Below are positions 290 through 41,514 of a stretch of DNA of 41,514 bases, piece by piece. Made by a program: the position numbers and the translations under genes. Origin of the DNA: a virus; the IMG/VR virus record IMGVR_UViG_3300020021_000023, positions 1-41,514 of that record. One strand, 5' to 3'. Each line of letters starts with the position of its first letter. The first letter of the stretch is position 1. The notes below the pieces were generated by a model. It saw only the letters and a list, made by a program, of their open reading frames with translations. It was not told where the DNA came from and made no database searches.

Positions 290-1447
290 ATGGCATGCTT
301 GCCTCTGCTGATGCCTGCTCTGCGAACCTCATCGCCTGGTCCGATGTATCCAGCGATCGCGCTCGATCGTACGCCGGCATTCGAAGACACCGACCGCGCC
401 ACGCGTCAGACCGTAGAGAAGATGTGCGAGCTGATCCGCGCGTCGATCAGCGACCCGCAAACAGATCCGACGTTGCAGAACATAGCGGCCGACATCAAGC
501 AACGTTACTGCTGGGGCTCTTGCGATCCCGGCGCGCTCGCGTTCGGCGTGTTCTGGTGGGTGAAGCATCACATTACGTTCCGCTCGGACGAAGGCACGAT
601 GTTCCAAGTGGGCGAGCCGAATCAACAGGACTTGCTCATCCGTCCGGACATCTTGGTCAAGATGCAGAAGCCGTCAGAAGACTGCGACGGCTTCACCATG
701 CTGACTGCGGCGCTCCTTACGATCCTCGGTGTGCCGGTGGTGATCGCAACCGTTGCGGTCGACCTCGAAGACCCGACGCGCTGGTCGCATGTGTTCCTCT
801 GCGCGATCGTCAACGGCCGCGTGATGCCGCTCGACACGTCGCACGGGAAGGCGCCTGGCTGGATGGTTCCGCGGTCGCGCATCAACCGGTGGCAGACGTG
901 GACGCTCGACGGGCGGCCGGCGGATGTGCAGATCCCGACGTACCACGGGCTCAATGGTTATTCGCGGTCGGGAGTCGGACAAGTGCGCGGGGCTTCGGTG
1001 TTGCCGTTTCCGATGCGGCGTCGGCTTGCGCAGATTGCGCGGGGAATGTCGGGCCTCGGTCAGACGTGCATCAGTCAGGATGAGGCTGGTAATTGTCTGG
1101 AGTATGACAACTCCGGGCCGCTGGGAAGCTCACCGGGCATAACTGAGGTACCCGATCCGATCTCTTCGGCGGAATACTGCGATGTGGGATGGACGTTAAC
1201 CGGTCCAGGGGTTTGCAGTCAGGCCGTGGGAGGCGCAACTAAACCCGCGTCGGCGTCCCCGAACTATGCGGCGCTCGTGTCCTCTATCGCGAACGCGGCA
1301 AGTTCCGACCTGAGGGCGGTGATCCAACAACCGGCCGCGTTGCTGCAAGCGCAGACCTGGGCGAACCTGTCCGCGTATCTGCCGATCATCGGCGTGGGAA
1401 TTCTGGGCGTGATGTTGCTGAGTTCCGCGATGGGGGGCAAAAAGTGA
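290..1447 (+). CDS. Transglutaminase-like protein with C-terminal membrane helix
   Basis: This 385-residue protein has a transglutaminase-like core at about residues 70-190. The candidate triad is Cys132 in SEDCDGF, His167 in WSHVF and Asp182 in PLDTSHG, which matches the Cys-His-Asp order of papain-like transglutaminase folds. Members of this superfamily crosslink or cleave peptides; here it may act on virion proteins or the host envelope. The middle carries GMSGLGQ, a motif shared with neighbouring small proteins. The C-terminus is a hydrophobic helix (about 363-380) ending GGKK. No clear ribosome binding site precedes ATG 290, so the true start could be a downstream ATG. It heads the plus-strand operon and its stop is followed directly by the next ATG. 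Confidence 0.8.
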   Translation: MACLPLLMPALRTSSPGPMYPAIALDRTPAFEDTDRATRQTVEKMCELIRASISDPQTDPTLQNIAADIKQRYCWGSCDPGALAFGVFWWVKHHITFRSDEGTMFQVGEPNQQDLLIRPDILVKMQKPSEDCDGFTMLTAALLTILGVPVVIATVAVDLEDPTRWSHVFLCAIVNGRVMPLDTSHGKAPGWMVPRSRINRWQTWTLDGRPADVQIPTYHGLNGYSRSGVGQVRGASVLPFPMRRRLAQIARGMSGLGQTCISQDEAGNCLEYDNSGPLGSSPGITEVPDPISSAEYCDVGWTLTGPGVCSQAVGGATKPASASPNYAALVSSIANAASSDLRAVIQQPAALLQAQTWANLSAYLPIIGVGILGVMLLSSAMGGKK

Positions 1448-4858: not shown

Positions 4859-5287
4859 ATGGGCTATTCAAAACCACAATCCGGAATGGGTTGCTCTTGC
4901 AACGGGAAGTGCGGCGGCAACGATCCGATGATCGGCATGGGCTATTTCACCAGCATGGACCCGTCGACCTGGGGAGTCGCGGAGTGGGGCACGGTCGCGG
5001 GCGTGGTGTTCGTTGGCTCGAAGGTGATCGCCTCGCATCCGTTGGTGCGCAGCGGCCGGAAACGCGCGGGCGCGGCGGCGTCGAAGGGCGCGTCTTCCTT
5101 GGGGAATATCGCGCTGCTCGGGATCGGCGCTTACGGGTTGTGGTGGCTCTATTCGCAGTATCAGGCGGGATCGTTGACGCTGCCGGGGTTGGGGGATTAC
5201 CAGCAGCAAGGTTATGTGAATCCTCAGATTTTGCAGAATCCAACGCGCACTAGTGCGGTACAGGTTCCGATTGGTTGGGCGGCGTAA
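4859..5287 (+). CDS. Membrane protein sharing a C-terminal module with the 10103 gene
   Basis: The 142-residue protein has an N-terminal Cys cluster (GCSCNGKCGG) and two hydrophobic segments (about 38-55 and 82-97). Its C-terminus contains GDYQQQGYVNPQIL and VQVPIGW, which closely matches MGDYQVQGFVNPQIL and VLVPTGW at the end of the basic protein at 10103. The shared module suggests two components that contact the same partner, probably in the virion. Confidence 0.75.
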   Translation: MGYSKPQSGMGCSCNGKCGGNDPMIGMGYFTSMDPSTWGVAEWGTVAGVVFVGSKVIASHPLVRSGRKRAGAAASKGASSLGNIALLGIGAYGLWWLYSQYQAGSLTLPGLGDYQQQGYVNPQILQNPTRTSAVQVPIGWAA

Positions 5288-5295
5288 AGCTTTTT

Positions 5296-5544
5296 ATGTT
5301 GGCCTCGGTTAACAATTCGGGACGACGGGCGCTACCTGTTCGACAGGGTGGTGTGCGGGAATGCGGAGAACTTCAACCGCTGTTTGTGTTGGGCCGGATT
5401 CTCATCATGCTCAAAACCCTGACACCGGAAGAACGGGTCTACACGGTGCTCCGCGCCGAATCCCTTCTCAGGGTTTACGGTCACTACTTCCCTCCGCCGA
5501 CTGTCGAACATGATTACTCCGACGTGCAAGGAGGTGATCGATGA
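5296..5544 (+). CDS. Cassette protein between E2 and E3
   Basis: An 82-residue frame begins inside E2 as MLASVNNSG...LPVRQG and ends inside E3 as TVEH...GGDR. The body (LTPEERVYTVLRAESLLRVYGHYF) is predicted helical. Both termini are therefore encoded by the inverted boundary elements. Its stop overlaps the next start (ATGA at 5541). No family is recognised. Confidence 0.6.
   Translation: MLASVNNSGRRALPVRQGGVRECGELQPLFVLGRILIMLKTLTPEERVYTVLRAESLLRVYGHYFPPPTVEHDYSDVQGGDR
5299..5348 (+). repeat. Boundary element E2, forward
   Basis: TTGGCCTCGG...GTTCGACAGGG. Preceded by a T run and the ATG that opens the cassette ORF. Pairs with E3, about 150 bp downstream. Confidence 0.85.
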
Positions 5545-5550
5545 GGCCAA
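5501..5550 (-). repeat. Boundary element E3, reverse
   Basis: CTGTCGAAC...ATGAGGCCAA. The outer block contains both the stop of the cassette ORF and the ATG of the next gene. GGAGG lies inside the variable part, 10 nt before that ATG. Confidence 0.85.
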
Positions 5551-7987: not shown

Positions 7988-8523
7988 ACGATTGCCTCCG
8001 AGATCCGCTTATCTATAACGGGCAGTTTCCCTTCCAGGCGAAGTACGCAACCGGGCGCGTGCTCAACGTCGGCTGCAACTCGGACGGAGCGGGGTTCCGG
8101 CAACGGGGCGGGGTGAACATCGACTTGTTCCGCAAAGACGACCACACCGGCTGGGATCTCCCGGTCGACGCACAGGCCGACGCGCGGCGGCTCCCGTTCG
8201 GCAAGAATTCGTTCGATTCGGTTGTGCTGGGAGAAATCCTCGAGCACATGCAGACGCACGATGCGGTTGCTTCCTTGCGCGAAGCGAAAACGGTGTTGAA
8301 ACCGGGCGGGCGAGTGGTCGCAACCATTCCGCATGACGACCGCGGCGGGCCGGATCACATCCCGGAATACGCTCCCGGCATCGCGGCCTATCACTACCGC
8401 GAAATCACGCGGTGCGAGTTTTTCGATTGGATCAAGGCGGCGGGGCTCAAGCTGATCGTCTGGGGAAAAATCGTTCACGTGTGGGGCAAAGAGGGAACGG
8501 GGATTGTCGCGGTGTGCCCATGA
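7984..8523 (+). CDS. SAM-dependent methyltransferase (class I)
   Basis: The 179-residue protein starts with TTG, overlapping the upstream stop (TTGA), with AAGGAGG 7 nt before it. Motif I is VLNVGCNSDGAGF, an acidic residue follows in NIDLF, and FDSVVLGEILEHM with KPGGRVVATIPHD are standard class I features. The family methylates small molecules, sugars or proteins; with glycosyltransferases on both sides, sugar or glycan methylation is the best inference. It is slightly shorter than typical stand-alone members. Confidence 0.8.
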   Translation: MNDCLRDPLIYNGQFPFQAKYATGRVLNVGCNSDGAGFRQRGGVNIDLFRKDDHTGWDLPVDAQADARRLPFGKNSFDSVVLGEILEHMQTHDAVASLREAKTVLKPGGRVVATIPHDDRGGPDHIPEYAPGIAAYHYREITRCEFFDWIKAAGLKLIVWGKIVHVWGKEGTGIVAVCP

Positions 8524-8696
8524 TGAATCTCGACAAAATGCGCGCGCTTGCGTTAAGGGACACGTGCCCGATGTGTTTTGGAGAACTCGATACAGGCTGG
8601 GAATGCAACAACTGCGGTTACGACGCAAAGCCGCTTGTCGATGGTGAAAAGCTAATCCGGGGACCGATGGCAGGAGAGGCCAATTCAACATGCTAG
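8520..8696 (+). CDS. Double-CxxC zinc ribbon protein
   Basis: The 58-residue protein has CPMCFGELDTGWECNNCGYD, a four-Cys zinc ribbon. It is a close paralogue of the protein at 16569-16730, which shares TCP-CFGELDTGWECNNCGYDA. The C-terminus AGEANSTC is encoded by element-like sequence E4. The start overlaps the methyltransferase stop (ATGATG). The role is unknown; such ribbons often bind nucleic acids or protein partners. Confidence 0.75.
   Translation: MMNLDKMRALALRDTCPMCFGELDTGWECNNCGYDAKPLVDGEKLIRGPMAGEANSTC
8634..8683 (-). repeat. Boundary element E4, reverse, unpaired
   Basis: CTTGTCGATGG...GAGAGGCCAA. No forward partner was found upstream, since the preceding bases are inside the methyltransferase. 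It may be a cassette remnant. Confidence 0.55.
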
Positions 8697-10102: not shown

Positions 10103-10969
10103 GTGGCAACAACAACCAGAATCACCCGCGTCGTAGGCAATCGCGGACGCGCGTTCGGCTCTCCTTCCAGGAGAAACAAGAGATCCAAAAAACGGGCGAA
10201 GCACGCGGCCCGTCGCAATACCGGCGAAATCCTCGCGTACACGCTCGCAACCGGTAACCCCGGTAGAAAGGCAAAGAGAAAAAAGATGGCAATACGCAAA
10301 CGTAAGCTCAAGTTCGGTTCCGCGGCCTGGCGGGCGAAGTACGCCCACAAGCGAAAACGCACGAATCCAGGACGTCGACGGCGGCATCACGCAGTTTCAC
10401 GGCATCGCCGGCGGTCGACCCGGCCCAACCCAGGAAGGCGCAGCAATATGCGGCGAACACACCGGAGAAATCCCGGCGAGGGCAACATCAACTCGTACCT
10501 GACGAACGCAACCTTCGCAATCGTCGGTGCGATCGGCTCGCGGCTGGGCGCTCAGTTGATCCTTGGCGCCAATAACACGGGGCCGGTTGGCTACATCGCA
10601 AATCTGGCCGTCGGCGGCGCGGGCTGGTGGGTGGCCGAAAAGGTCATGAAGAACCGGGAAGCGGCGAAAGGCATCCTCACGGGTACGCTGATCGGCGTGA
10701 TTCTCCGGCTCCTGAACGACTACACGCCGTTCGGGCAGTACCTCAACAGTTGGGGCATGGGGGATTACCAGGTGCAAGGATTCGTGAATCCTCAAATCCT
10801 GGTCGATCCGACCAACAACTCGCAGGTTCTCGTTCCAACCGGATGGGGGGGCGCTGCGGCGCTTCCCTCCGGTGCTGCTGCGAGTCCGGTCATGGCGGGC
10901 GGCAATCGGGGCGGAATGGGCGCGGCAAGCTATGACGACGGCGGTTTATTCGGGCAGTCCAGCTACTAA
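10103..10969 (+). CDS. NPG-repeat basic protein with membrane segments
   Basis: This 288-residue protein (GTG start) has an extremely basic first half with repeated NPG motifs (GNPGRK, TNPGRRR, PNPGRRS, RRNPGEG) and FGSAAWRAKYAHK. It then has hydrophobic segments (FAIVGAIGSRLGAQLIL, GYIANLAVGGAGWWV, ILTGTLIGVILRLL) and a C-terminal module MGDYQVQGFVNPQIL shared with the 4859 protein. Part of the N-terminus is paralogous to the 6450 protein. A DNA-binding tail plus membrane anchors suggests it links the genome to an internal membrane or shell. This is inference from composition. Confidence 0.75.
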   Translation: MATTTRITRVVGNRGRAFGSPSRRNKRSKKRAKHAARRNTGEILAYTLATGNPGRKAKRKKMAIRKRKLKFGSAAWRAKYAHKRKRTNPGRRRRHHAVSRHRRRSTRPNPGRRSNMRRTHRRNPGEGNINSYLTNATFAIVGAIGSRLGAQLILGANNTGPVGYIANLAVGGAGWWVAEKVMKNREAAKGILTGTLIGVILRLLNDYTPFGQYLNSWGMGDYQVQGFVNPQILVDPTNNSQVLVPTGWGGAAALPSGAAASPVMAGGNRGGMGAASYDDGGLFGQSSY

Positions 10970-11001
10970 GCCGGGCAGTCCTCAGATCAACAGATTTCAG
11001 C

Positions 11002-11024
11002 TTCAAATTTAAAGGAGATTTGAA
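11002..11024 (+). promoter_or_regulatory. Hairpin presenting the ribosome binding site of the 11028 gene
   Basis: TTCAAAT (11002-11008) pairs with ATTTGAA (11018-11024), leaving the loop TTAAAGGAG with the Shine-Dalgarno core exposed. It lies 3 bp before the ATG of a candidate major virion protein. Loop display or mRNA stabilisation would suit high expression. Confidence 0.6.
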
Positions 11025-11027
11025 TTT

Positions 11028-11699
11028 ATGGGAGCAATTCCAGCAACAGCCGCCTTCATGGGCCGCAACACTAATGCCTTCGTGGCGAACACCGTCGATC
11101 AGGAACCGTATCTCTACTGGGATGCCGGAACGCTGATCACGGCGGCGGGATCGCAGGTACAGACTACGTACTTCGCGTTTGCGATTCCTTCCGGGCAGCC
11201 GAATCCGGCGCTCGGTGCCACCAACAACAACAACACGAAGTTGCAGACGAACATGCAGACGGGTAACCAGTTTCCCCCGCCTCGCTGCTTGCTGCTCAAC
11301 GCGATTTGCTTTCAGTACGCCTCGAACATGCTCAAAACGGACATCGACGCCATTGAGAACGGCGCGTATTTCGAGTTCAAAATCTCCGATAAGACCTTCT
11401 ACGAAGGATATCTGCGGGATTGCCCGGCGGGCGCGGGGCTGATGGGCGCTTCGACGAACAACGGCGAATCCGTCTTTACCAACGGCTGGCCTACTCCGGC
11501 GGGACGGCGCACTTTCGGAACGTGGGCAAAGTACATTCCGCCGTTGACGCGGTTCTCGATCAACGTATATTTCAACGGGTCGAATAACATCATTGCCGGG
11601 ACGGCGACGCCTCCGACGATGACGCCCTCGGGATCGGGCGGAACCGGAATGAACATCCGGATTGTGCTCGACGGTATCACCGCTCTTCCGGTGCAGTAG
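11028..11699 (+). CDS. Candidate major capsid protein (beta-rich)
   Basis: This 223-residue soluble protein has the strongest ribosome binding site in the operon (AAAGGAG). It is rich in Asn, Thr and aromatic residues and has alternating hydrophobic strands (FPPPRCLLLNAICFQYA, YFEFKISDKTFYEGYL, FSINVYFNG). Its C-terminal pattern (PLTRFSINVYF, then NIRIVLDGITALP) is shared in form with the 13369, 13850 and 15182 proteins. No HK97-type features (delta domain, protease, portal nearby) are seen. A single jelly roll is my inference, to be tested by structure prediction. Confidence 0.55.
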   Translation: MGAIPATAAFMGRNTNAFVANTVDQEPYLYWDAGTLITAAGSQVQTTYFAFAIPSGQPNPALGATNNNNTKLQTNMQTGNQFPPPRCLLLNAICFQYASNMLKTDIDAIENGAYFEFKISDKTFYEGYLRDCPAGAGLMGASTNNGESVFTNGWPTPAGRRTFGTWAKYIPPLTRFSINVYFNGSNNIIAGTATPPTMTPSGSGGTGMNIRIVLDGITALPVQ

Positions 11700-11719
11700 A
11701 CTGGGATTGTGGGGTTCGC

Positions 11720-11795
11720 TCCGGCCTGGTGTAATCGGCAAAAGCACGTCCAGGGGCATCCTTGGAAGATGTCGGTTCGAATCCGTTAGCTGGTG
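11720..11795 (+). ncRNA. tRNA-like sequence
   Basis: A 76-nt segment resembles a tRNA. The D-arm is GTGT-AATCGGCAAAA-GCAC, the anticodon-like stem is TCCAG/TTGGA, and the T-arm contains GGTTCGAATCC with the conserved TTCGAAT loop. Ends pair 5 of 7 (TCCGGCC/AGCTGGT). The anticodon loop is 8 nt (GGGCATCC) without T33, and the T-stem has a mismatch, so it is probably a decayed tRNA or tRNA mimic. CAT could be the anticodon remnant. Confidence 0.4.
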
Positions 11796-11864
11796 ATGAA
11801 CCTCACAGTTTGAATGGGCAGGGAGTGGCTTCTGGCCGCTACCCAAAACGCCTTGCCTGTTCTT

Positions 11865-11919
11865 TTGTCGGCCTCATCGGGCGTTCGCGTTCTGAGGGGC
11901 CTCCATCGTTCGACATGGG
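11865..11919 (+). repeat. Boundary element E7, forward (empty cassette, left end)
   Basis: TTGTCGGCCTCATCG...GTTCGACATGG. Its inner end GTTCGACATGGGCGGT is complementary, with one bulged T, to the inner end of E8 only 11 bp further on. Confidence 0.85.
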
Positions 11920-11940
11920 CGGTAGCTGTCTATAACCGCC

Positions 11941-11990
11941 CTGTCGAACCATCGGTATCCCATCTGGCCGGGATCTACGGGTAGGCCAGA
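11941..11990 (-). repeat. Boundary element E8, reverse (empty cassette, right end)
   Basis: CTGTCGAACC...GGGTAGGCCA. With E7 it forms a cassette of about 126 bp with no room for a gene. The variable part GGCCTACCCGTA (reverse complement) matches E1. Confidence 0.8.
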
Positions 11991-12007
11991 ACAAAAAGAA
12001 GCCCTCC

Positions 12008-12922
12008 ATGGCCTACACGCCCTTCACTAACGACTACTCCTCGGACATCGCAGGGCAGCAGCGTGCGCAAAACCGGCAAGCTTCACGCCGACAGCAAATA
12101 GCCCAAATCTTCGCGGACGGAAACAACGTTTTGGGTGGGCTGGTTCAGGAGTGCTGCTCCGATCCGGCCTTCGATGGGCAAGCGTTCTACGACGATACTT
12201 CAATCTTGGCCGCAAGTCTTGTGCCCGGGACCCCGGTAACGGCTGCGAATCCCGTCAATGGGATTTTGCAGCCGGCCGTACCTCTCACGCCGAACGACAT
12301 CCTCAGTAAGTCGCTGGGCTTTCCGGTTCGCGCTGGGGGTGGGAGATGGCCGCGGCCGCGCATCCCGGCAAGCTTTCTGCGCAACGGTGCGCGGCGCTAT
12401 CCGGATTACGGGCCGACGCTCGGGGCTCGAAGCTTGGTTCCAGATTGCCCGTGCGGGTTCGCCACTCAGCCGATTGTGATGTCCGCGCCTCAGCCTCCGG
12501 TATCGGTCGGCTCACCGATGCCAGCAGCTCCGCAGAATTGCCCGTATCCCGGTTGCTCGACGGGGAACATTTGCCTCGACCTAATCACCGGTTGCGTGTC
12601 GAATTCGCAGGTAACGCAGCAACAGGTGCAGGCTTGTACGCAGGCGGGTTATGCGACGTTTGGGAATTCAGGCACGTGGCTTTCGGCGATCATGCTCGGA
12701 TGCGGCGGAAATCTTCCTTACCTTGGGACTCCGTTGCCGAATCCTCCGCAGGCTGTGGGATCGATGGAAATGATGTTGCTGCAGGCGAATTCGAAGGGGG
12801 CGGCAGCGTCTTCGAAGGCGAGGGGCATGGGTGGGCTAGGACAATCTGATAATTCAAATGTCGGAGGGTTCTTGGCAGCGGTCGGAGTTTTTGGTATGCT
12901 CGTGTGGGCTTTGAAGAAATGA
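12008..12922 (+). CDS. Cys-rich surface protein with GLGQ motif and C-terminal helix
   Basis: The 304-residue protein has a Gln/Arg-rich helical N-terminus and a Pro/Cys-rich middle (VPDCPCGF, CPYPGCSTGNICLDLITGCV, QACTQAGY). A conserved GMGGLGQ follows, then a terminal helix (VGGFLAAVGVFGMLVWAL) ending KK. The GLGQ-plus-helix ending is the same as in the 1448-4855 cluster. Its TGA overlaps the ATG of a short MVWPTR leader. A membrane-anchored virion protein is likely. The start ATG lacks a strong ribosome binding site. Confidence 0.75.
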   Translation: MAYTPFTNDYSSDIAGQQRAQNRQASRRQQIAQIFADGNNVLGGLVQECCSDPAFDGQAFYDDTSILAASLVPGTPVTAANPVNGILQPAVPLTPNDILSKSLGFPVRAGGGRWPRPRIPASFLRNGARRYPDYGPTLGARSLVPDCPCGFATQPIVMSAPQPPVSVGSPMPAAPQNCPYPGCSTGNICLDLITGCVSNSQVTQQQVQACTQAGYATFGNSGTWLSAIMLGCGGNLPYLGTPLPNPPQAVGSMEMMLLQANSKGAAASSKARGMGGLGQSDNSNVGGFLAAVGVFGMLVWALKK

Positions 12923-13809: not shown

Positions 13810-13817
13810 AGTCTTTT

Positions 13818-13853
13818 ATGTTGGCCTCGTCACAGTTGAACGCTAAATCATGA
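13818..13853 (+). CDS. 11-codon leader from truncated element E11
   Basis: MLASSQLNAKS, with its TGA overlapping ATG 13850. It has the same N-terminus as the 16405 ORF, but the inner block of the element is missing. Confidence 0.3.
   Translation: MLASSQLNAKS
13821..13845 (+). repeat. Boundary element E11, forward, truncated
   Basis: TTGGCCTCGTCACAGTTGAAC. Only the outer block and the GTCACA class mark are present; no inner GTTCGACA and no partner. It looks like an excision scar or solo end. Confidence 0.6.
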
Positions 13854-16404: not shown

Positions 16405-16569
16405 ATGTTGGCCTCGTCACAGTCGACCGCTTCGCCTGTTCCTCTGCCTGTTCGACATGGGCAAACTGAGCCTTGGACAATCGACTTGAATGATCCCAGA
16501 TTGCAGCCGGTCTACTGGTATGCAAATCGATTTCGTACCCAGTATGCCACCAAAGAAGGGGCGGACTGA
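16405..16569 (+). CDS. Cassette protein starting in E14
   Basis: The 54-residue frame is MLASSQSTASPVPLPVRHGQ... then DLNDPRLQPVYWYANRFRTQ. The whole first 20 residues come from E14. TGA overlaps the next ATG (TGATG). The downstream half looks like a genuine protein sequence, so the element seems to supply the N-terminus. Confidence 0.6.
   Translation: MLASSQSTASPVPLPVRHGQTEPWTIDLNDPRLQPVYWYANRFRTQYATKEGAD
16408..16460 (+). repeat. Boundary element E14, forward
   Basis: TTGGCCTCGTCACAGTCGACC...GTTCGACATGG. Shares GGCCTCGTCACA with its partner E15, 750 bp away. Confidence 0.9.
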
Positions 16570-16730
16570 TGGATCTCAAAAAGGTTCGTGCCGTGGCCCT
16601 GCAAGATACCTGCCCGATCTGTTTCGGAGAACTCGACACAGGCTGGGAGTGCAATAACTGCGGTTATGACGCTATGCCGCTCGTGACGGGCGCGCTACAA
16701 CCAATCGCAGACCCTCAGGGAGGGGTATAG
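16569..16730 (+). CDS. Double-CxxC zinc ribbon, paralogue of the 8520 gene
   Basis: The 53-residue protein has CPICFGELDTGWECNNCGYD, almost identical to the 8520 protein over 30 residues. The copies sit 8 kb apart, one beside a solo element and one inside a full cassette. Start and stop overlap both neighbours (TGATG; TAGTG). Function unknown. Confidence 0.75.
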   Translation: MDLKKVRAVALQDTCPICFGELDTGWECNNCGYDAMPLVTGALQPIADPQGGV

Positions 16731-16960
16731 TGCCGGAGAAAACCGCCAAACCCGCCGTCGTTCGCGCCAAGGCCGTGCATCCAGTCGTCCGCGACCTGAA
16801 GCAGTTCATCTCCGCGTGCGCACAACTGCGGGAACAAGCGCAGCCTGAAAAAGTCGTGGCGAACGTGGGGCGCGCGGTGGGCGAGTTCATCGGCGAGATG
16901 GATGAGGGGTCGAAAAAGCTTATAGGTGAAGTGGTCGGGATGTTCCGGGGGCGGCGATGA
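16730..16960 (+). CDS. Small helical cassette protein
   Basis: The 76-residue basic then amphipathic protein (GTG start, TAGTG overlap) has VRDLKQFISACAQLREQ and VGEFIGEMDEGSKKLIGEVVGMF. No family is recognised. Predicted all-helical; could be a small regulator or structural adaptor. Third gene of the E14-E15 cassette. Confidence 0.65.
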   Translation: MPEKTAKPAVVRAKAVHPVVRDLKQFISACAQLREQAQPEKVVANVGRAVGEFIGEMDEGSKKLIGEVVGMFRGRR

Positions 16961-17220
16961 TAATCTGGGCCGTGCTGAAGGATATAGGAATCCTCATCGC
17001 ACCGTCCAGGATTATCTGCCTTGGCGGCATGCATGAAGCGAAAGCGGGAATATTCGTGGCATCGGTGCGCGACGGCGAAAGTGGAGTGTTCGCGGACATC
17101 GATGAGGCTGAAACCTTCCTGGTCCACCAGTTGAGGAAAAGCATCCGGTCATTCACGCCCCTGACTGTCGAGCACTCCCCCGCCGACCAAGCCGCAAAGT
17201 GTGACGAGGCCAAACCATGA
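16957..17220 (+). CDS. Cassette protein ending in CDEAKP
   Basis: The 87-residue protein has alternating hydrophobic strands (IIWAVLKDIGILIAPSRIIC) and an acidic segment. Its tail TVEHSPADQAAKCDEAKP is encoded by E15. Start and stop overlap neighbours (ATGA). Unknown function. Confidence 0.65.
   Translation: MIIWAVLKDIGILIAPSRIICLGGMHEAKAGIFVASVRDGESGVFADIDEAETFLVHQLRKSIRSFTPLTVEHSPADQAAKCDEAKP
17165..17214 (-). repeat. Boundary element E15, reverse
   Basis: CTGTCGAGC...TGTGACGAGGCCAAA, followed by CC-ATG. GAGG is 7 nt before ATG 17217. Pairs with E14 around three complete genes and most of a fourth. Confidence 0.9.
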
Positions 17221-17852
17221 GCAGCGGATTCTGCGTACCAAAGAACACAGAAAACTTACTGACGCTCTCCCCACTCTATCGGGACTACTGGGGCGAGCAG
17301 ATGGCTGCGTTCACCAGGCGGCTCGACCGCTTCGCGCATCTTGGCTGCTACGTCCCGCGCTTCTACCACGCGCCCGACTCGGCTTCGCAATTCGTTGGAG
17401 TGCAGCCGAACGACTACAAAACGTACTTGCTCTCGCTGCCGGTGGGCTCGTTTATCATCGGCTTTTTGCACACGACTTCAAGCGCTCCGTTTGCGAACGG
17501 TTCACCATCGCCAACGCATCCGCCTCCTAATCCCAGCGGGTTCACGTGCCAGATTACGGACTTGTCCATCGATCACAAATGGTTCTCGCATCCGTGCCCT
17601 GAGGCGTGGTTCATCAACGACAACATGTTGAACGGATCAGACTTTCCGCCGTATCAGGATGCAAACTTCCCGTTCACTTTCCCAAGCTTTCCCCGGTTGC
17701 TTGCGCAGCCGTACCCGGTGGTAGGGCAGGGGCAGTTTCAAGTCGAGTTTTATAACTCTCTCGATACGGTCAACACAGACGTACAGATGACCTTCTTAGT
17801 TCTGGTTCCAGATGGACCTGATGCGAATGCGGGAAGGGTTTCGAACAAGTGA
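17217..17852 (+). CDS. Beta-rich virion-like protein, 211 residues
   Basis: The N-terminus is helical and aromatic (LSPLYRDYWGEQMAAFTRRLDRF). The rest is beta-like and Pro-rich (VGSFIIGFLHTTSS, TCQITDLSIDHKWFSHPC), ending GQFQVEFYNSLDTV...QMTFLVLVPDG, a form of the shared C-terminal pattern. It lies between two cassettes, as the other core structural genes do. Minor capsid role inferred. Confidence 0.55.
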   Translation: MSSGFCVPKNTENLLTLSPLYRDYWGEQMAAFTRRLDRFAHLGCYVPRFYHAPDSASQFVGVQPNDYKTYLLSLPVGSFIIGFLHTTSSAPFANGSPSPTHPPPNPSGFTCQITDLSIDHKWFSHPCPEAWFINDNMLNGSDFPPYQDANFPFTFPSFPRLLAQPYPVVGQGQFQVEFYNSLDTVNTDVQMTFLVLVPDGPDANAGRVSNK

Positions 17853-18082
17853 AGTCTTTTGGGTTGGCCTCATCGGGCGATCGCGCTGCGAACGAACCTG
17901 ACGGCGTTCGACATTCACGGGTTTCCTGGTGGCGAACCATGTTGTTTGAGGCGAGGTGCTGGTGGTGTTGGACGTATCCCAACATTGTCTTCATGCACCT
18001 GATGGGCTACAACCGGCAGACGATCGACTCACTTTGTGAAAGGCACGACGCGAAAATGCCGATTGATCCGAGGGGCGAATGA
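17849..18082 (+). CDS. Cassette protein with element-encoded N-terminus
   Basis: The 77-residue frame (GTG overlapping the upstream stop as GTGA) reads MKSFGLASSGDRAANEPDG-VRHSRV from E16, then an aromatic, Trp- and Cys-rich body (CWWCWTYPNIVFMHLMGY). It ends PRGE, overlapping the next ATG. The N-terminus shows the LAS...VRH signature. Possibly membrane-associated. Confidence 0.65.
   Translation: MKSFGLASSGDRAANEPDGVRHSRVSWWRTMLFEARCWWCWTYPNIVFMHLMGYNRQTIDSLCERHDAKMPIDPRGE
17864..17914 (+). repeat. Boundary element E16, forward
   Basis: TTGGCCTCATCGGGCGATCGCG...GTTCGACATT. Pairs with E17. The variable part resembles E7 and E47 (TCGGGCG, GATCGCGCT). Confidence 0.85.
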
Positions 18083-18222
18083 CCCGCGACCTTGCAGCAC
18101 TCGCGGCGCGCGTCCTCTTGATCTGGTCGACGTGGGCGTTTCATCGCCTGTCAGCACGAAAGCGGCAACGTGTCGAGAAGGCTCAGGCCGCACAAGCCGG
18201 AAACGAGAGCGAGGCCAAATAA
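18079..18222 (+). CDS. Small membrane cassette protein ending ESEAK
   Basis: The 47-residue protein has one hydrophobic segment (ALAARVLLIWSTWAF) and a basic-then-polar tail (RKRQRVEKAQAAQ) ending GNESEAK through E17. The start overlaps the previous stop (ATGA). Likely a one-helix inner membrane protein. Confidence 0.6.
   Translation: MTRDLAALAARVLLIWSTWAFHRLSARKRQRVEKAQAAQAGNESEAK
18170..18219 (-). repeat. Boundary element E17, reverse
   Basis: GTGTCGAGAAGG...GAGCGAGGCCAAA. GAGG lies 10 nt before ATG 18225. Confidence 0.8.
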
Positions 18223-18224
18223 TC

Positions 18225-18758
18225 ATGCCCGTTGAATCCCAATCCGCAGAGGCGTTACAACAGGCGCTCGATACGATGGTCAAGCTGGCGAAATCACGCC
18301 GTACCGTCTGGGGGACGCCGGTTCCTTGGTTCGCGGAGCCGATCTTTGCCAAGGGCTTTGTGGTGGCTCCCGACTTCGGCGCGGCTAACCAGCTCGTCAT
18401 CGCTACCTACGAAGTCCCACGCGGGTACACGACACTATTTTGCGGCGTGGTCTTCGGATACGCCGGGGGCGGGGTGGCACTTCCGGGGCAAGTGCTCTTT
18501 ACCATCGATTCGCTGAACCCGAACCCGGTTGTAGTTTCTCCGCAGCAAGGCTACGCGGTGAAGGACTATGCGAACGTGCCGTTTGCACTGGGAACCTTAG
18601 CGCCTGGGAACCCGTGGCCGGTGGAGTTCAAGTTCGATCAGAATGAAACCGTGCGCATCAAAGGGCAAACGGTTTCAACGGTGGCGACTGGAGCGGGGAA
18701 CTTTTTGTTTGGTGCTCTGTTCGGGTGGCAGTGGGCTACGGCGGGATGGGAAGGCTGA
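18225..18758 (+). CDS. Beta-rich virion-like protein, 177 residues
   Basis: The N-terminal helix (ALQQALDTMVKLAKSRR) is followed by beta-like segments: LVIATYEVPRGYTTLFCGVVFGY, VLFTIDSL, VEFKFDQNETVRIKG, NFLFGALFGWQWA. Its length fits a single jelly roll. It lies in the same core series as 11028, 13369, 13850, 15182 and 17217. The start follows E17 directly. Confidence 0.55.
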   Translation: MPVESQSAEALQQALDTMVKLAKSRRTVWGTPVPWFAEPIFAKGFVVAPDFGAANQLVIATYEVPRGYTTLFCGVVFGYAGGGVALPGQVLFTIDSLNPNPVVVSPQQGYAVKDYANVPFALGTLAPGNPWPVEFKFDQNETVRIKGQTVSTVATGAGNFLFGALFGWQWATAGWEG

Positions 18759-29360: not shown

Positions 29361-29555
29361 TCATTTTTTGCCGTTGGCAATCTCTCTATCGCGCCATCGG
29401 GCTTCCCAGAACTCCCGGCGCAACTGCTCGGCCTCGGATTTCGACAGCTTCCCTTCCTTCAGACCGGCGGCGATCATGCGGAACAAACGGACCCGGAGCG
29501 ATTCCGTGTTCCGGGAACGCAGGTGCGCTTCGTTTCTTTGGACTTTGGCGGTCAT
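29361..29555 (-). CDS. Helical cassette protein with MTAKVQRNEA N-terminus
   Basis: The 64-residue protein MTAKVQRNEAHLRSRNTESL... is Arg/Glu-rich and helical (EGKLSKSEAEQLRREFWEARWRD). Its N-terminus is shared with the chimeric 29792 gene. The start overlaps the previous stop (ATGA). Confidence 0.65.
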   Translation of the reverse strand: MTAKVQRNEAHLRSRNTESLRVRLFRMIAAGLKEGKLSKSEAEQLRREFWEARWRDREIANGKK

Positions 29556-29749
29556 CTGTAATCGCTGACCTCTATCACGTCGCGCATTGTGCCGGTCTGC
29601 GATTCGCCCAGCCGTGGACGCCAATCAGCCTGATCCACCTGCGTTTGAACCGCATCCGTTGCCATGCACCAATGGCCCTCGCCATCGAAGAAACCAACCT
29701 CGATATCCGGCATCGTCAATAGTTTTTGAGCCAATTCCCTTGTCGTCAT
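29552..29749 (-). CDS. Small cassette protein, 65 residues
   Basis: MTTRELAQKLLTMPDIEVGF-FDGEGHW... with a helix and then strands; ends VIEVSDYR. This order (helix, PD-x-E-V, short strands) resembles small phage proteins of unknown function. AAGGG lies 6 nt upstream, just after E29. Confidence 0.65.
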   Translation of the reverse strand: MTTRELAQKLLTMPDIEVGFFDGEGHWCMATDAVQTQVDQADWRPRLGESQTGTMRDVIEVSDYR

Positions 29750-29760
29750 TGAACCCTTTC

Positions 29761-29811
29761 CATGTCGAACCCGATTCCTCAACGCGCGATCTCAGTGCTG
29801 TTGAGGCCAAA
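29761..29811 (-). repeat. Boundary element E29, reverse
   Basis: CATGTCGAACC...AACGCGCGATC...GTTGAGGCCAAA. Left end for the minus strand; its outer block encodes SLWPQQH and the stop of the 29792 gene. Confidence 0.85.
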
Positions 29812-30007
29812 GACTCGAAATCCTGTTCAACTCCTCCTGTGAACAGTGCGACGAACTCATAATCACAATCACGTCCCCCGGCAGCGAACCGGACAACGCA
29901 ATCGTTCCTACCGGCAACTCCAGCACCGCGCACAACAAGCGGGCGCGTAGTGTTTCGGTATTGCGGCATCGCATTGCGGCTTCGTTTCTTTGGGCTTTGG
30001 CGGTCAT
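29792..30007 (-). CDS. Chimeric gene: MTAK N-terminus fused to a DUF192 C-terminus
   Basis: 71 residues. The first 24 (MTAKAQRNEAAMRCRNTETL) match the 29361 protein. The rest (AVLELPVGTIALSGSLPGDV-IVIMSSSHCSQEELNRISSLW) matches the last 45 residues of the DUF192 protein at 30278. The DNA match to 30291-30420 is close to identity over the first 70 bp, so the fusion is recent. It stops within E29, at the place where the parent stops within E30. A shuffled, perhaps non-functional product. Confidence 0.65.
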   Translation of the reverse strand: MTAKAQRNEAAMRCRNTETLRARLLCAVLELPVGTIALSGSLPGDVIVIMSSSHCSQEELNRISSLWPQQH

Positions 30008-30231
30008 AGATCCCTTGCCTCCGGCTGTTTCAAGCGTAGGCATTGCTTTTTGACGCTGCCGAACGACTCCCAGCACAGTTCGATGTTTTCTTCTCGCAAC
30101 AATCGATTGACCACGCCAGGATTGAACGCCGTACAGAGTACAGTACCTTCGTGCCTTATTCTGTGGATTGCCTCAACCGCATGTTTCGACAGCGGATGTG
30201 TCTTAGTTCCGTTTAACGGTGTCCAGTTCAT
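30004..30231 (-). CDS. Small unknown protein, 75 residues
   Basis: MNWTPLNGTKTHPLSKHAVE-AIHRIRHEG... then GVVNRLLREENIELCWESFG and KKQCLRLKQ. Compact and helical. AGGAAGGGG from E30 is the ribosome binding site. The start of the next gene overlaps its stop. Unknown. Confidence 0.6.
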   Translation of the reverse strand: MNWTPLNGTKTHPLSKHAVEAIHRIRHEGTVLCTAFNPGVVNRLLREENIELCWESFGSVKKQCLRLKQPEARDL

Positions 30232-30243
30232 TGCAAGCCCCTT

Positions 30244-30297
30244 CCTGGTCGAACGCTCTCAACTCCCCGCGCAGCCGTCAGGCCGAATGAGGCCAAA
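30244..30297 (-). repeat. Boundary element E30, reverse, TGGTCGAACG variant
   Basis: CCTGGTCGAACGCTCTC...CCGCGCAGCCG...AATGAGGCCAAA. Left end on the minus strand without a separate right end. Confidence 0.8.
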
Positions 30298-30712
30298 GAC
30301 TCGAAATCCTACTCAACTCCTCCTGTGAACAGTGCGAAGAACTCATAATCACAATCACGTCCCCCACTCTGGTACCGGACTGCGCAATCACCCCGGCGGG
30401 CAATTCGAGCACGGCTGACAGCTCCGGCGGAATCCGCGTATTGAAGTGGCACGTAGGCGGGGCGTCGGAAAGCGCTTTCTGAACCCGGTGGGTCAACATG
30501 TCGATAAAAAGCACGTCGATGTTCATGGACATCTGGACCGTGTGAATCGCGTTGCACCCTTCGAAGAACAGTCCGGCACCTGGCTGGAACTCTTGGGCGC
30601 TCACTCCGATCAGGCCGTTTAGCTTCTCTTCGCGCGTCGATGCAATGTCGGCGTGGGTTGCCAGAATCGAGGTTCTGGTTGCATTGGTGATTCTGAGAGT
30701 GGGCCGTGTCAT
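30278..30712 (-). CDS. DUF192-family protein
   Basis: 144 residues. LNGLIGVSAQEFQPGAGLFF, then HTVQMSMNIDVLFIDMLTHR, APPTCHF and AVLELPAGVIAQSGTRVGDV follow the DUF192 pattern (RGLM...GMLF...FWMKNT...IDLIFID...VLELPAG...GD). DUF192 proteins are small beta domains of unknown biochemical role, often exported in bacteria. There is no signal peptide here. Its stop lies in E30; its last 45 residues were copied into the 29792 gene. The start overlaps the previous stop (ATGA). Confidence 0.75.
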   Translation of the reverse strand: MTRPTLRITNATRTSILATHADIASTREEKLNGLIGVSAQEFQPGAGLFFEGCNAIHTVQMSMNIDVLFIDMLTHRVQKALSDAPPTCHFNTRIPPELSAVLELPAGVIAQSGTRVGDVIVIMSSSHCSQEELSRISSLWPHSA

Positions 30713-33894: not shown

Positions 33895-34131
33895 TCATTT
33901 GTCGGCCTCGCCGGGATGTGCGGCTTGGACCGGCTCCGAAGTCTCGACAGTTGGCTTTTCGGTGATTTCCAGATGGAAACCGTAGACCCGATCGTTGAAT
34001 AAGACTTCAACCGGTAGCCCGGTCAGCCTTTCGAGATCGAACGCTTGCCGGCAGACGTCGTGCAAAAAACTGCCGTTGTTCGCCCGGACCTGTACCAACT
34101 CTATCTCGCTGAATTGCTTATGTATGCTCAC
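33895..34131 (-). CDS. Small cassette protein ending PGEADK, 78 residues
   Basis: GTG start, GGGAGGG upstream from E43. MSIHKQFSEIELVQVRANNG, then CRQAFDLERLTGLPVEVLF and HLEITEK, an alpha/beta mix. Its C-terminus (VETSEPVQAAHPGEADK) is from E42. The gene is bracketed by E42 and E43. Confidence 0.65.
   Translation of the reverse strand: MSIHKQFSEIELVQVRANNGSFLHDVCRQAFDLERLTGLPVEVLFNDRVYGFHLEITEKPTVETSEPVQAAHPGEADK
33899..33950 (+). repeat. Boundary element E42, forward
   Basis: TTGTCGGCCTCGCCGGG...GTCTCGACAG. Pairs with E43. The 15 bp between E41 and E42 is one of the shortest cassette gaps. Confidence 0.85.
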
Positions 34132-35613: not shown

Positions 35614-35829
35614 GATTGAGTATTCCAACCGCTTGATTGCTTCCTTCAGATGGATAACCTCTTCCATCGATTCAGCCCACTCCGCACCGGTCTGGCATTT
35701 CGCAATATCCAGCACCTTGGAAATCCTGCCTTTCAGCCAAAAGATTACATCCGCAGTTTGCAGTTCGGCGACAGCCATCCGAAGGCTCTCCATCGCACGC
35801 GACATATCGGCGGTTATCGTTTCGCACAT
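35578..35829 (-). CDS. Helical cassette protein ending LVGRSQTDRSH, 83 residues
   Basis: MCETITADMSRAMESLRMAV, then ADVIFWLKGRISKVLDIAKC and WAESMEEVIHLKEAIKRLEY. Predicted helix-rich; unknown. Start overlaps the previous stop (TAATG). Confidence 0.65.
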   Translation of the reverse strand: MCETITADMSRAMESLRMAVAELQTADVIFWLKGRISKVLDIAKCQTGAEWAESMEEVIHLKEAIKRLEYSILVGRSQTDRSH

Positions 35830-36212
35830 TACTGCACCCTCCCGGCGCCCGCCGTCTTCGCAGGCGCGAAAATGTCATCCGGCAGATATTCTTCCATCGT
35901 GTCCTCTAAAATCTGATTGCGCTGTTTTGTCGACGGCTTGCGATATCCCGACCGGTCAACCCGTGGGGCAATAGCCGCATGTCGAACACGCCCGCCTTGG
36001 AGCGAAGCGCGATCGTCCGATGAGGCCAAAATGAACGCATCTAAGAATCTTGCCAACCTCCGTACCCCAGTCAGCCACAACACCCCAGCACCAAGGGACA
36101 CGGCAAGAAAGAAGCCAAGCCCGACAAAAGCGGCAGGGCGTCCGCCGGCTGAAATCACGATTCCCGTTATCAGCACCGAACCGGCGAGAAAGGCGAGTGA
36201 GTTTTTAATCAT
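35829..36212 (-). CDS. Membrane protein with internal element-encoded region, 127 residues
   Basis: Start at ATG 36212 (AGGAG 9 nt upstream). Two helices (LAFLAGSVLITGIVISAG, AAFVGLGFFLAVSLGAGVLW) are followed by RLARFLDAFI, then LASSDDRASLQGGRVRHA read from E47, then a basic region (RVDRSGYRKPSTKQRNQILE). It looks like an upstream gene fused in frame to the left end of the E46-E47 cassette. Confidence 0.65.
   Translation of the reverse strand: MIKNSLAFLAGSVLITGIVISAGGRPAAFVGLGFFLAVSLGAGVLWLTGVRRLARFLDAFILASSDDRASLQGGRVRHAAIAPRVDRSGYRKPSTKQRNQILEDTMEEYLPDDIFAPAKTAGAGRVQ
35977..36030 (-). repeat. Boundary element E47, reverse
   Basis: GCATGTCGAACACGCCC...GCGCGATCGTCCGATGAGGCCAAA. In frame as LASSD...GRVRH in the 35829 protein. 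Confidence 0.85.
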
Positions 36213-36283
36213 TGGGTCCATCTCCTGATAAAGAGTTTGCCTGTTTGCCTTGCGCGGATCAATGGTACTTTCGCCGTAGAAAT
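36213..36283. other. Short intergenic gap
   Basis: 71 bp between the minus genes at 36212 and 36284. It holds the AGGAG for the 36212 start and no element or gene that I can see. Confidence 0.4.
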
Positions 36284-36538
36284 CTACTTACTCTGGGCCT
36301 TAGTACGTTGGGTCTGCTTTCCGCATTTGCAGACGAGGAGCGATGTCGGGTTCATGCGTCCGCACTCGCACGCACGGCGGGAACCTGCGCGACGTGTCCA
36401 TTTCTTTCCGGCACGCATTCTGCCATCTGCCAATCTTTTCGCGCTGGTAGCCAAACCGTGCGCGCGGCTGGTCGACGAAGCCCAGTCAACCCATCGTTCA
36501 AGATCAAACGGCTTCCCGTCTTTGCCCGCTCCGCTCAT
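36284..36538 (-). CDS. Zinc ribbon protein, 84 residues
   Basis: MSGAGKDGKPFDLERWVDWA, a helical and basic middle, then ACECGRMNPTSLLVCKCGKQ, a CxC...CxC ribbon. Not bracketed by elements on either side. Overlaps the 36535 stop (ATGA). Unknown role. Confidence 0.65.
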   Translation of the reverse strand: MSGAGKDGKPFDLERWVDWASSTSRAHGLATSAKRLADGRMRAGKKWTRRAGSRRACECGRMNPTSLLVCKCGKQTQRTKAQSK

Positions 36539-36708
36539 GAGCGTTCCCGCATTTCGTACACGCGCGGCAACCCCTCGGCTTGGAGCTGGTCGAACTTTCC
36601 CAGATCGGTGAGGTAGCCGGCGCGGCGGGCTTTTTGTCGCTGCCTCTGTTCGCGGGCGTTTTTTTCTCGCCGCGCTTTCTTCCGGGCTGTGTGTGAACGA
36701 AAGCTCAT
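36535..36708 (-). CDS. Small basic protein, 57 residues
   Basis: MSFRSHTARKKARREKNARE, then RQKARRAGYLTDLGKFDQLQ and LPRVYEMRERS. GGAGGTG lies 4 nt upstream. Highly basic N-terminus; possible nucleic-acid contact. Below 60 residues but with strong start and stop coupling. Confidence 0.6.
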   Translation of the reverse strand: MSFRSHTARKKARREKNAREQRQRQKARRAGYLTDLGKFDQLQAEGLPRVYEMRERS

Positions 36709-37199
36709 TCCACCTCCAGGGGTCCAAGATGTACCGGGTTATCCTGGCGTTCGTCGCAGAGTCCGCATAGACCTTCGGGGCCTAGTACTTTGGGACGGAA
36801 ACGGTGCCGCGGTTCTTTTTTGTCGGCCTCGGCATGGTGTGCGGCTTGTTCGGCTCGGGTTTGCTCGACATAGGCCGCTATCTTTCTGTCCAGGGCGTGG
36901 ATTTCATCGCGATCCCACCAACCGCACAGCGCACACTGGAATGTGTTTTTCAGGGATTCGAACCTGTGTGGAATCCTCCGGTAGTCTTCCCACGTCGGCA
37001 TTCCTGGTCGAACGCTTTCAGGCTCACGCGCAGGGCTCGAACTGACTGAGGCCAATGCATAGGCCTTGTCACCCTCTACGGCTCGGACATCCTTTTCACC
37101 ATCGACACGTGGGAAGGGTGCCTCGGATATCCACTTTTTGTACTTCTCATCCGACAGCACGAAGCAACCGCGCAAAGCCCACCAAACCCAACGAAGCAT
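36705..37199 (-). CDS. CxxC protein with a cassette in frame
   Basis: 164 residues. The first 47 (LRWVWWALRGCFVLSDEKYK...) lead into YALASVSSSPAREPESVRPG from E49. Then follow MPTWEDYRRIPHRFESLKNT and CALCGWWDRDEIH, the E48-encoded VEQTRAEQAAHHAEADKK, and finally HRFRPKVLGPEGLCGLCDER with PVHLGP. The two HRF...CxLC...H units are alike, one inside and one outside the E48-E49 bracket. The whole frame is open, so either a cassette entered a gene in frame or the gene was built by duplication. Confidence 0.6.
   Translation of the reverse strand: MLRWVWWALRGCFVLSDEKYKKWISEAPFPRVDGEKDVRAVEGDKAYALASVSSSPAREPESVRPGMPTWEDYRRIPHRFESLKNTFQCALCGWWDRDEIHALDRKIAAYVEQTRAEQAAHHAEADKKEPRHRFRPKVLGPEGLCGLCDERQDNPVHLGPLEVE
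36820..36873 (+). repeat. Boundary element E48, forward
   Basis: TTGTCGGCCTCGGCATG...TTGCTCGACATAGG. Pairs with E49 within one ORF. Confidence 0.8.
37003..37054 (-). repeat. Boundary element E49, reverse, TGGTCGAACG variant
   Basis: CCTGGTCGAACGCTTTCAGG...GACTGAGGCCAA. Translated as LASVSSSPAREPESVRPG, very close to the E32 translation. Confidence 0.85.
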
Positions 37200-37212: not shown

Positions 37213-37266
37213 TCCTGGTCGAACGCTCTCAGCTCGACGCCTCAAAACCGCCGACTGAGGCCAAAG
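37213..37266 (-). repeat. Boundary element E50, reverse
   Basis: TCCTGGTCGAACGCTCTC...GACTGAGGCCAAAG. Left end with no separate partner; the small 37242 ORF ends inside it (FGLSRRF). Confidence 0.8.
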
Positions 37267-38710: not shown

Positions 38711-38991
38711 AGGCCGGGCTGTACAAAGCGATCGATAAGAAGTACGCGGAGATGGAAGCGTCGATCAAGCTGCGTTTCCGGGAAGCTCACATGCGGATAG
38801 AGCGGCTTGAAAAGCAGGTCGGTAATCTCGCCCTCGAATTGGTCCTCATTAAGCAAGACTTCGAACACCACACACATAAAGTGTCCGGGTACGTCCAAGC
38901 TGGAGAAACGGTTTTAGAAACCGCTCCACCGGAGCGACAGTCTGTGAATGTCGAACGAGCTCGACCCCATGCACAGACTCAAGCCCGCTGA
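38707..38991 (+). CDS. Coiled-coil protein, 94 residues
   Basis: MKAGLYKAIDKKYAEMEASI, then HMRIERLEKQVGNLALELVL, a heptad-like coil. The tail NVERARPHAQTQAR comes from E51 and the stop is the TGA of TGAGGCC. It may work with the initiator upstream. Unknown family. Confidence 0.65.
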   Translation: MKAGLYKAIDKKYAEMEASIKLRFREAHMRIERLEKQVGNLALELVLIKQDFEHHTHKVSGYVQAGETVLETAPPERQSVNVERARPHAQTQAR

Positions 38992-40109: not shown

Positions 40110-41514
40110 TTACGCCGCACTGTTTCCTCCAATCTCAATGACTCCATCACTAGGTGCTGACTCTTCCTCCTCATCCACTGGTAGCGTAAAGAACTGTTCT
40201 AAAAACGCCATGCGTTGCTGCTCTGGTCCAATCTCGACACTCAACTGCGGATGCTCGGCGATCATCTGCCCAAGCACACCGGGTCCAAGCTCACGCCGCA
40301 TATCTGCCCACTTGAACATGCCATGTCCTTCTAAGAACCAATCCCGGAAGTAGAACCCTCCCAAGCCGTCCGGATCTTTGAAGCGCTCCATCATTTGCGG
40401 GGCAATGTGAACAACGAACATTCCCCACTTGTTGCAGTGCTGCAAGAACGTCCGCTGTTCAGGCGTCAGATTCGGGTCTTCGGCCGGCGCCGTCGTTGCT
40501 GTTGTGGCTTGTGGCGGCGGGCCGTGTGGTGGCGGTGCGGCGGGGAGTGCTTGCGGGTTCGTCTGCGGCGGCGTCCAGGCGTGCGGGGCGGGCTTCGACT
40601 TGCCGTTGTTGATCATCTCCAGTACTCCGGGAATTGCTTCAGACACGCCCTCAACAATGGTTTGCAGCGGGTTTTCCCACCATGCACCGGGCTTCGAATC
40701 GCCCATCAGTTCCTTCGCGGCAAGCAGGGCAGGCTGGATTTCCTTGATCTGCTCGAGCAGGTTCTTCTGGGGGGTGGTTGCCTTGTTGCGGAGTTCCTTC
40801 AACTCTTCGCGAAGCTCTTTCCGATCGGCGCGGAGTTCTTCGATTATCAGATTGAAGGCTGAATTGTCCGGCGGCAGGGGCGCGGCCGGTGCGGGCTTGT
40901 TCAGCGCGGCATCGATCAACTTCCCGACCAGAACATCCGAACCGCTGCTCTTGCTCGCGAACCGCTCTACCATGTCCATCTGCTCTTTCATGCTGAACCC
41001 TGGGGGATACATGTTAGCGACTCCGTTCTGTTGTTGCTGCTGCGCGATTAGCTTCGGTCCTGCCCACTTCCAAACTTCGTTTGCGGGATCGTCGATCCAG
41101 TCTCCAGGCGGAACCCGCGGCGGATAGTCCATGTTCAGGATGTCGAAATATTCCTTCGCCCATCGCTTGTACTCCCCCGTCGTCTGGTCGATGTTCAGGA
41201 TATCGATGCGATAGACGCCCGAACCCTCGTCGAGCATGATTCGATCCTTGTCGAAAGGACCCGCATACTTGCGGATGTTGATCGGCCTTCCTCCGCTCCG
41301 GCGGTCGACCGTGGGCGCGACTCGATAGAGGTAGGCGATAGTGCGATCCCAGTCCGCGGGCTTGTAGTTTGCGAGTTCGAGCCAGATATCGCGATCGACG
41401 CGGGTTCTTGCGGCGGCGGGCAGCGGTTCGTCTTCATCGTCGGTTGGCAGGGGTGGGGGCGGCTGATTATTCCGGGTTTTCGATCCCTTCGGCCTTCCCG
41501 GACGCCTTTTCTCA
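40110..41514 (-). CDS. Junction-spanning protein, main part (continues into 204-1)
   Basis: The larger part of the 489-residue protein. After the junction come RDIWLELANYKPADWDRTIA and KYAGPFDKDRIMLDEGSGVY. Residues at about 243-285 form a coiled coil (IIEELRADRKELREELKELR) and a Pro/Ala-rich linker follows at about 330-372. The C-terminal domain has FLQHCNKWGMFVVHIAPQMM and FYFRDWFLEGHGMFKWADM, ending acidic. The N-terminal AT-hook-like patch, coil and linker suggest a DNA-associated adaptor or scaffold. It is the largest minus-strand gene and has no recognised family. The TAA is followed by E53. Confidence 0.8.
   Translation of the reverse strand, partial: EKRRPGRPKGSKTRNNQPPPPLPTDDEDEPLPAAARTRVDRDIWLELANYKPADWDRTIAYLYRVAPTVDRRSGGRPINIRKYAGPFDKDRIMLDEGSGVYRIDILNIDQTTGEYKRWAKEYFDILNMDYPPRVPPGDWIDDPANEVWKWAGPKLIAQQQQQNGVANMYPPGFSMKEQMDMVERFASKSSGSDVLVGKLIDAALNKPAPAAPLPPDNSAFNLIIEELRADRKELREELKELRNKATTPQKNLLEQIKEIQPALLAAKELMGDSKPGAWWENPLQTIVEGVSEAIPGVLEMINNGKSKPAPHAWTPPQTNPQALPAAPPPHGPPPQATTATTAPAEDPNLTPEQRTFLQHCNKWGMFVVHIAPQMMERFKDPDGLGGFYFRDWFLEGHGMFKWADMRRELGPGVLGQMIAEHPQLSVEIGPEQQRMAFLEQFFTLPVDEEEESAPSDGVIEIGGNSAA
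41376..41514. repeat. Terminal direct repeat, right copy (circular overlap)
   Basis: Counterpart of 1-139; identical over 41389-41514. Removing one copy joins the junction-spanning reading frame without a shift. Confidence 0.9.

Follow-up and report, generated by a model that had tools for sequence, protein, structure and literature searches.

In integrons, every cassette carries a single attC site with RYYYAAC/GTTRRRY ends, and the recombinase is the tyrosine recombinase IntI. Phage morons come with their own promoter and terminator and have no shared boundary element. The nearest published counterparts of the repeats described here are REPINs, viral MITEs and the SAS/ESAS repeats, each of which shows the design only in part and departs from it in a defining feature. 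REPINs are REP doublets that form hairpins, lie in extragenic regions of bacterial chromosomes, hold no cargo and are tied to RAYT (Y1) transposases (PMC3116915). MITEs have been described in viral genomes including those of pandoraviruses, as far as the accessible parts of these sources tell (PMC6004678; PMC4495683). The 13-bp and 17-bp SAS and ESAS repeats of cluster K mycobacteriophages lie at gene starts only, almost all in one orientation (PMC3203893).

The window, that is the whole stretch of DNA analysed, is a 41,514-nt virus record from IMG/VR. Most accessory genes in its clade are probably carried as cassettes between inverted elements of about 46-50 nt, and this explanation, in which we have reasonable confidence when taken as a whole, includes the origin of a 164-codon frame from modules that ran together. 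Like REPINs, the elements form short inverted pairs with a preferred spacing (44 nt here), many copies per genome, a predicted hairpin and no transposase inside the unit. Unlike REPINs, most units carry an open reading frame (ORF), the element ends lie in reading frames, the units occur in viruses and no match to a Y1 transposase (PF01797) was obtained in nine virus records, a set to which host genes do not belong. The likeness to MITEs consists of terminal inverted repeats, many copies per virus genome, non-autonomous units and sites that are filled or empty at the gene level, whereas the units here are mostly located between core genes and carry a gene, and no transposase or parent transposon was recognised, nor any convincing target-site duplication (the ATG/CAT that both outer flanks tend to hold is part of the element consensus). 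SAS/ESAS are likewise conserved repeats at the starts of a subset of phage genes, with inverted repeats and an unknown function, but the elements here are about 48 nt long and stand at both gene start and gene end, in opposite, alternating orientation. Small single-gene cassettes in series with a conserved element of about 50 nt recall integrons; we rejected an integron cassette array, given that the ends are GTCGARC and GAGGCCAA instead of attC, that each cassette has two inverted sites and that no tyrosine integrase (PF00589) was matched in the nine records, some of them possibly incomplete (positive control, 14/14). Accessory genes that lie between core genes and differ among relatives are also a feature of morons, but the units here all share one boundary element. 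A gene-cassette arrangement with two inverted elements was not found described in the open-access literature.

The comparison covered nine related virus records including the window. The eight others are multi-element IMG/VR contigs recovered by the element pattern or by core-protein search; seven have core genes in common with the window, and the eighth (G002) is tied to it by the elements and weaker protein matches only. Several of the nine records are fragments and the relatives are distant, about 30-60% identical over most compared flanks. Phage records contained no relatives of the two window proteins queried. Element scans of GTDB genomes gave no match in one case and 11 single-hit contigs in the other, approximately the chance estimate, and therefore indicate no cellular source or host. 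The genome family is GC-rich (58% GC). The two ends of the record (2-139 and 41377-41514) form a direct repeat that is 98% identical, which suggests a circular or terminally redundant genome. A core protein of 223 residues (11028-11699), conserved in six relatives, might be a capsid protein; its AlphaFold model has a mean pLDDT of 41, too poor for classification.

Elements were searched for with a two-ended weight matrix and a length term, trained on exact copies and iterated. The matrix, the codon model and the strand calls come from home-made scripts, and the strand assigned to a unit rests on the codon model. With a cut-off of at least 14 bits, the nine virus records contain 350 elements against 4 in reversed-sequence controls, where a score of at least 20 bits was reached by one scan window in 668 kb. 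The elements are 46-50 nt long and have a variable middle between nucleotide ends that are near-invariant in both orientations, one reading GTCGAAC, GTCGAGC or GTCGGGC and the other GAGGCCAA followed by AAMCAT. Adjacent elements alternate in orientation in 270 of 335 cases (shuffles 173±9, maximum 207). The features discussed below are collected in Table 1.

Table 1. Positions in the window of the elements, units and reading frames discussed in the text.
Feature	Position	Strand	Remarks
Cassette flanked by two core genes, missing from the syntenic site of G004	5299..5550	+	
Empty unit, two inverted elements 28 nt apart	11868..11989	+	Same position in G004, 38739-38881
Cassette absent from the syntenic site of G004	16408..17213	+	5' element 16408-16456, 3' element 17167-17213
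In-frame element inside gene 35829-36221 (-)	35981..36029	+	37.1 bits
Next gene, MSFRSHTARKK...	36535..36708	-	Start overlaps the 164-codon frame's stop (ATGA)
164-codon ORF, parts A+B+C	36705..37199	-	ATG start
Part C, HRF...CGLC...H, without its own start codon	36708..36818	-	Stop overlaps the next ATG
Part B, HRF...CALC...H cargo, tail from E48	36819..37001	-	Homologous segment in G007: QCALCGWWDRDEIHALDRKIAAY
E48, diverged 3' element of part B	36823..36869	-	47 nt; 21-22 bits (21.1-22.2)
E49, 5' element of part B	37007..37055	+	31-35 bits (31.3-34.6)
Part A, residues 1-48, small gene	37056..37199	-	Separate-gene homologue in G008
Candidate degenerate 3' element of part A	37060..37106	-	11.4 bits, 5.8 with the larger training set
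E50, element	37218..37264	+	35.0-37.5 bits; 5' end of part A's unit, reverse relative to the gene

Viewed along the gene strand, the 5' element (TTGGCCTC...GTTCGAC) stands directly before a small ORF and the 3' element (GTCGARC...GAGGCCAA) overlaps the C-terminus of that ORF. Inward-facing pairs enclose either a small ORF or almost nothing, and their inside distances have a sharp peak at 44 nt (18 of 138 pairs lie at 40-44 nt, mostly exactly 44) and otherwise amount to a few hundred nt. The interior of empty units is conserved, CAGGAG...CTCCTG. The bases just inside the two unit ends are G-G or T-T in 74 of 90 units (Fisher p=4e-11); among cargo units, the ends match in 53 of 68, where a within-virus permutation expects 44.6 and attained the observed value in 7 of 5000 runs. 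This association within pairs may, against the cassette model, stem from a common origin instead of a joint function.

The 3' element typically ends GAG GCC AAx CCA TGA (commonly GAG GCC AAA CCA TGA); the stop of the ORF overlaps the ATG of the next gene, for which GAGG is the likely ribosome-binding site. That a unit can usually be read at either end is explained by its elements: the 3' element provides the stop of the upstream ORF together with the next GAGG/ATG, and the 5' element, in its 49-nt form, reads LAS...SVRPG. Translational coupling under selection would then keep the 3' end in frame. One frame is open from the 5' to the 3' element in 26 of the 90 units with a clear strand (16/68 with cargo, 10/22 empty), and there are 104 frames that run across an element and extend 40 or more codons beyond it in both directions. 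The earlier note had seen a whole cassette in frame inside the 164-codon ORF and had said that an insertion preserving the frame on both sides, or a tandem duplication within a gene, would be remarkable. The preservation of the frame is real, but given that in-frame units are common in the family it needs no special coincidence. A milder form of the claim survives, as in-frame elements do occur inside real genes: one gene of the window, conserved in five relatives, has an element where the alignment shows only a variable linker in those relatives, and further cases are found in genes of G003 and G007.

Units may be gained and lost whole, as inverted-repeat modules. Aligned empty sites in relatives support such whole-unit gain or loss, as far as genome comparison can tell. 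Apart from the two window cassettes with an empty counterpart in G004, protein-guided alignment of the same two flanking genes places a unit in G008, G003 and G006 and none in G005, and at another such pair of genes a unit in G007 and G008 and none in G009. The gaps at empty sites close almost completely, down to a few bases (21 for window 16408-17213 against G004); the flanks are too distant for a base-level definition, and 'empty site' is therefore meant at the gene level. A single core junction holds units of 131, 170, 224, 328 and 497 nt in five viruses. Window 290-1447 is one fused gene, as in G004, and its counterpart in G009 (10400-12200), G003 (17050-18400) and G007 consists of two genes with an empty unit between them.

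Three further places in the window deserve mention. Direct repeats at 29482-30420, 77-83% identical, extend across neighbouring cassettes and could reflect a recent duplication. Segments 8521-8638 and 16567-16684, which are 77% identical and lie near or inside two different cassettes, might be copied cargo. An apparent half element (13810-13849) is located between two core genes, at a position where G004 has a cassette gene.

E48 and E49 are genuine members of the element family. As the earlier note had proposed, they bound a cassette that is in frame on both sides: the ORF continues without a stop across E49, the cargo and E48, both elements exceed the score cut-off, and the HRF...CxLC...H motifs it had noticed in the cargo and in the C-terminal flank are present at residues 78-101 and 132-157. 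On the coding strand E49 reads TTGGCCTC...GTTCGAC and is translated as LASVSSSPAREPESVRP, in the reading frame also used by elements W 30927, G4 12184 and G3b 14512, while E48 has diverged ends (GTCGAGC...GAGGCCGA) and encodes VEQTRAEQAAHHAEAD. The pair is an ordinary cassette around the zinc-finger-like part B. The homologue of B in G007 (E about 3e-4) belongs to an ORF ending in a 3' element, in which another N-terminal domain precedes the zinc-like segment, the two being joined by a stretch that resembles a 5' element, SSPAVSTVRPGE. A related gene of G003 has the same N-terminal domain, a full in-frame 5' element and then the zinc-like segment; the B-like zinc cassette of G003 is bounded by both elements and stops at EAKQ. 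Part A has its homologue at G8c 5246-5326 in G008 (tblastn E=3e-4), where it is a gene of its own with a start right after a 3' element, continues in frame into the next 5' element (LASSRVEASTEGKSVRPGDGLS) and stops there. A separate gene with an independent start is the kind of result that the earlier note had itself named as refuting its proposal. No homologue of part C was found in the nine virus records, IMG/VR or phages, and searches with the complete ORF in IMG/VR, phage records and the relatives were equally negative. Pfam searches with the whole ORF and its parts, and PHROGs searches with the parts, gave nothing usable.

Another question regards how three such parts came to share one frame. 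The tandem duplication suggested by the two motifs did not hold up: BLASTP found no similarity between B and C, a protein shuffle gave p of about 0.06 and the DNA is without similarity. A homologue of A that is a separate gene, homologues of B that lie in separate genes, the lack of an A-C gene and the lack of similarity between B and C all point to modules that ran together. The 164-codon frame thus looks like adjacent cassettes joined through lost stop codons, not like an insertion into one gene. Modules A, B and C would lie head to tail, and the stops that normally separate them would be missing, leaving a single frame. For the stop after B such a loss is suggested by comparing the end of window element 33902-33948, GAGGCCGACAAATGA, with the counterpart end of E48, GAGGCCGACAAAAAAGA. 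The candidate 3' element of part A adjoins E49 at a distance of 4 nt and has its first 15 nt in common with the accepted element 8637-8683. Against run-together modules, this candidate is a weak one, at 5.8 bits with the larger training set, and part C has neither start nor homologue, making its former existence as a separate module a guess. Parts B and C may also form a genuine protein with two motifs.

Other origins of the frame can be weighed against the same observations. One of them, after a reading raised in the earlier note, is that cassette B was inserted in frame into an existing A-C gene whose product is still a single protein. The open frame, the overlap of its final stop with the next ATG and the occurrence of in-frame elements inside conserved genes would all suit such an event, but no homologue with A joined to C exists in the nine records or came up in IMG/VR, and the known homologue of A is a separate gene, which leaves the insertion decidedly improbable. 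It is also unlikely, if less markedly, that the 164 codons are a chance open frame in GC-rich DNA, with B alone or nothing at all being translated. Open frames across elements are common, our home-made gene finder passed over this ORF and its codon scores are near neutral; however, for A and B there are homologues at the protein level in this frame, and it outscores the two other frames of the same strand for A and B, and weakly for C.

For the elements themselves, the main rival to the cassette explanation is a role in RNA, which we regard as possible though doubtful. The inverted pairs would fold in the transcript, enclose each gene in an RNA domain and control translation, processing or stability, and gain or loss would be the usual turnover of genes at sites where the structure has to be retained. 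Empty units are indeed predicted to fold strongly (-51 to -75 kcal/mol) and conserve both inner and outer stems, the base pair just inside the unit covaries, and the AGGAG-like sequence of the 5' side is complementary to the 3' side. Moreover, 3' elements differ from 5' elements chiefly by A-to-G exchanges at positions 5-6 (69, as opposed to 5 in the reverse direction), a difference that preserves G-U pairing in the sense RNA alone. This exchange is, however, a difference between classes and not between individual pairs, and may reflect coding. Covariation in the alignment of empty units is almost nil (term 0.01), the outer half is without pair-specific covariation, units are missing from certain junctions although the genes on both sides are otherwise retained, and Rfam had no match for the element in the loci of the window and two relatives. 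RNA and mobility roles may coexist. Alternatively, the elements could encode conserved peptide tags, LAS...SVRPG at the N-terminus and VE/VGR...EAK at the C-terminus, that affect the proteins carrying them, in packaging for instance. Many cargo ORFs do gain similar terminal peptides through the open frames, but 3' elements of 47, 48 and 49 nt shift the frame at the GTCG end and leave only EAK constant; we rank tags very low, as the least credible of these readings, because of this varying frame. The gene start inside or after many 48-nt 5' elements and the near-invariance of the nucleotide ends in both orientations also speak against them.

If cassettes are the better description, the enzyme that would move them could be sought among the clade's own genes. 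A serine recombinase (PF00239) is present in four of the nine records (L079, L080, L081 and L082, in G002, G003, G008 and G007, respectively) and no such gene is found in the window. Each of these genes has a 3' element on one side and, on the other, an in-frame 5' element that encodes its last ~15-20 residues; the elements flank many genes, however. The solved structures closest to the G003 recombinase are DNA invertases, and the invertase-type recombinase of the four relatives is one candidate enzyme for unit movement. A more far-reaching version would be a dedicated cassette system of the clade, in which the two inverted ~48-nt ends of each gene combine three roles (mobility ends, RNA structure and translational couplers), units are inserted between or inside genes with the frame kept, domains are fused in frame (the 164-codon frame being one example) and the serine recombinase of the clade runs the process. 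This version is speculative, and we think it rather unlikely to hold in full.

Should the cassette explanation be true, an operon of these viruses could take up or lose single genes without breaking the translation of their neighbours, at a boundary that is recognisable by sequence. The same boundary element would allow accessory genes to be listed across an entire clade of uncultured viruses, and it would provide a way to test whether in-frame joints between cassettes make new fused proteins.
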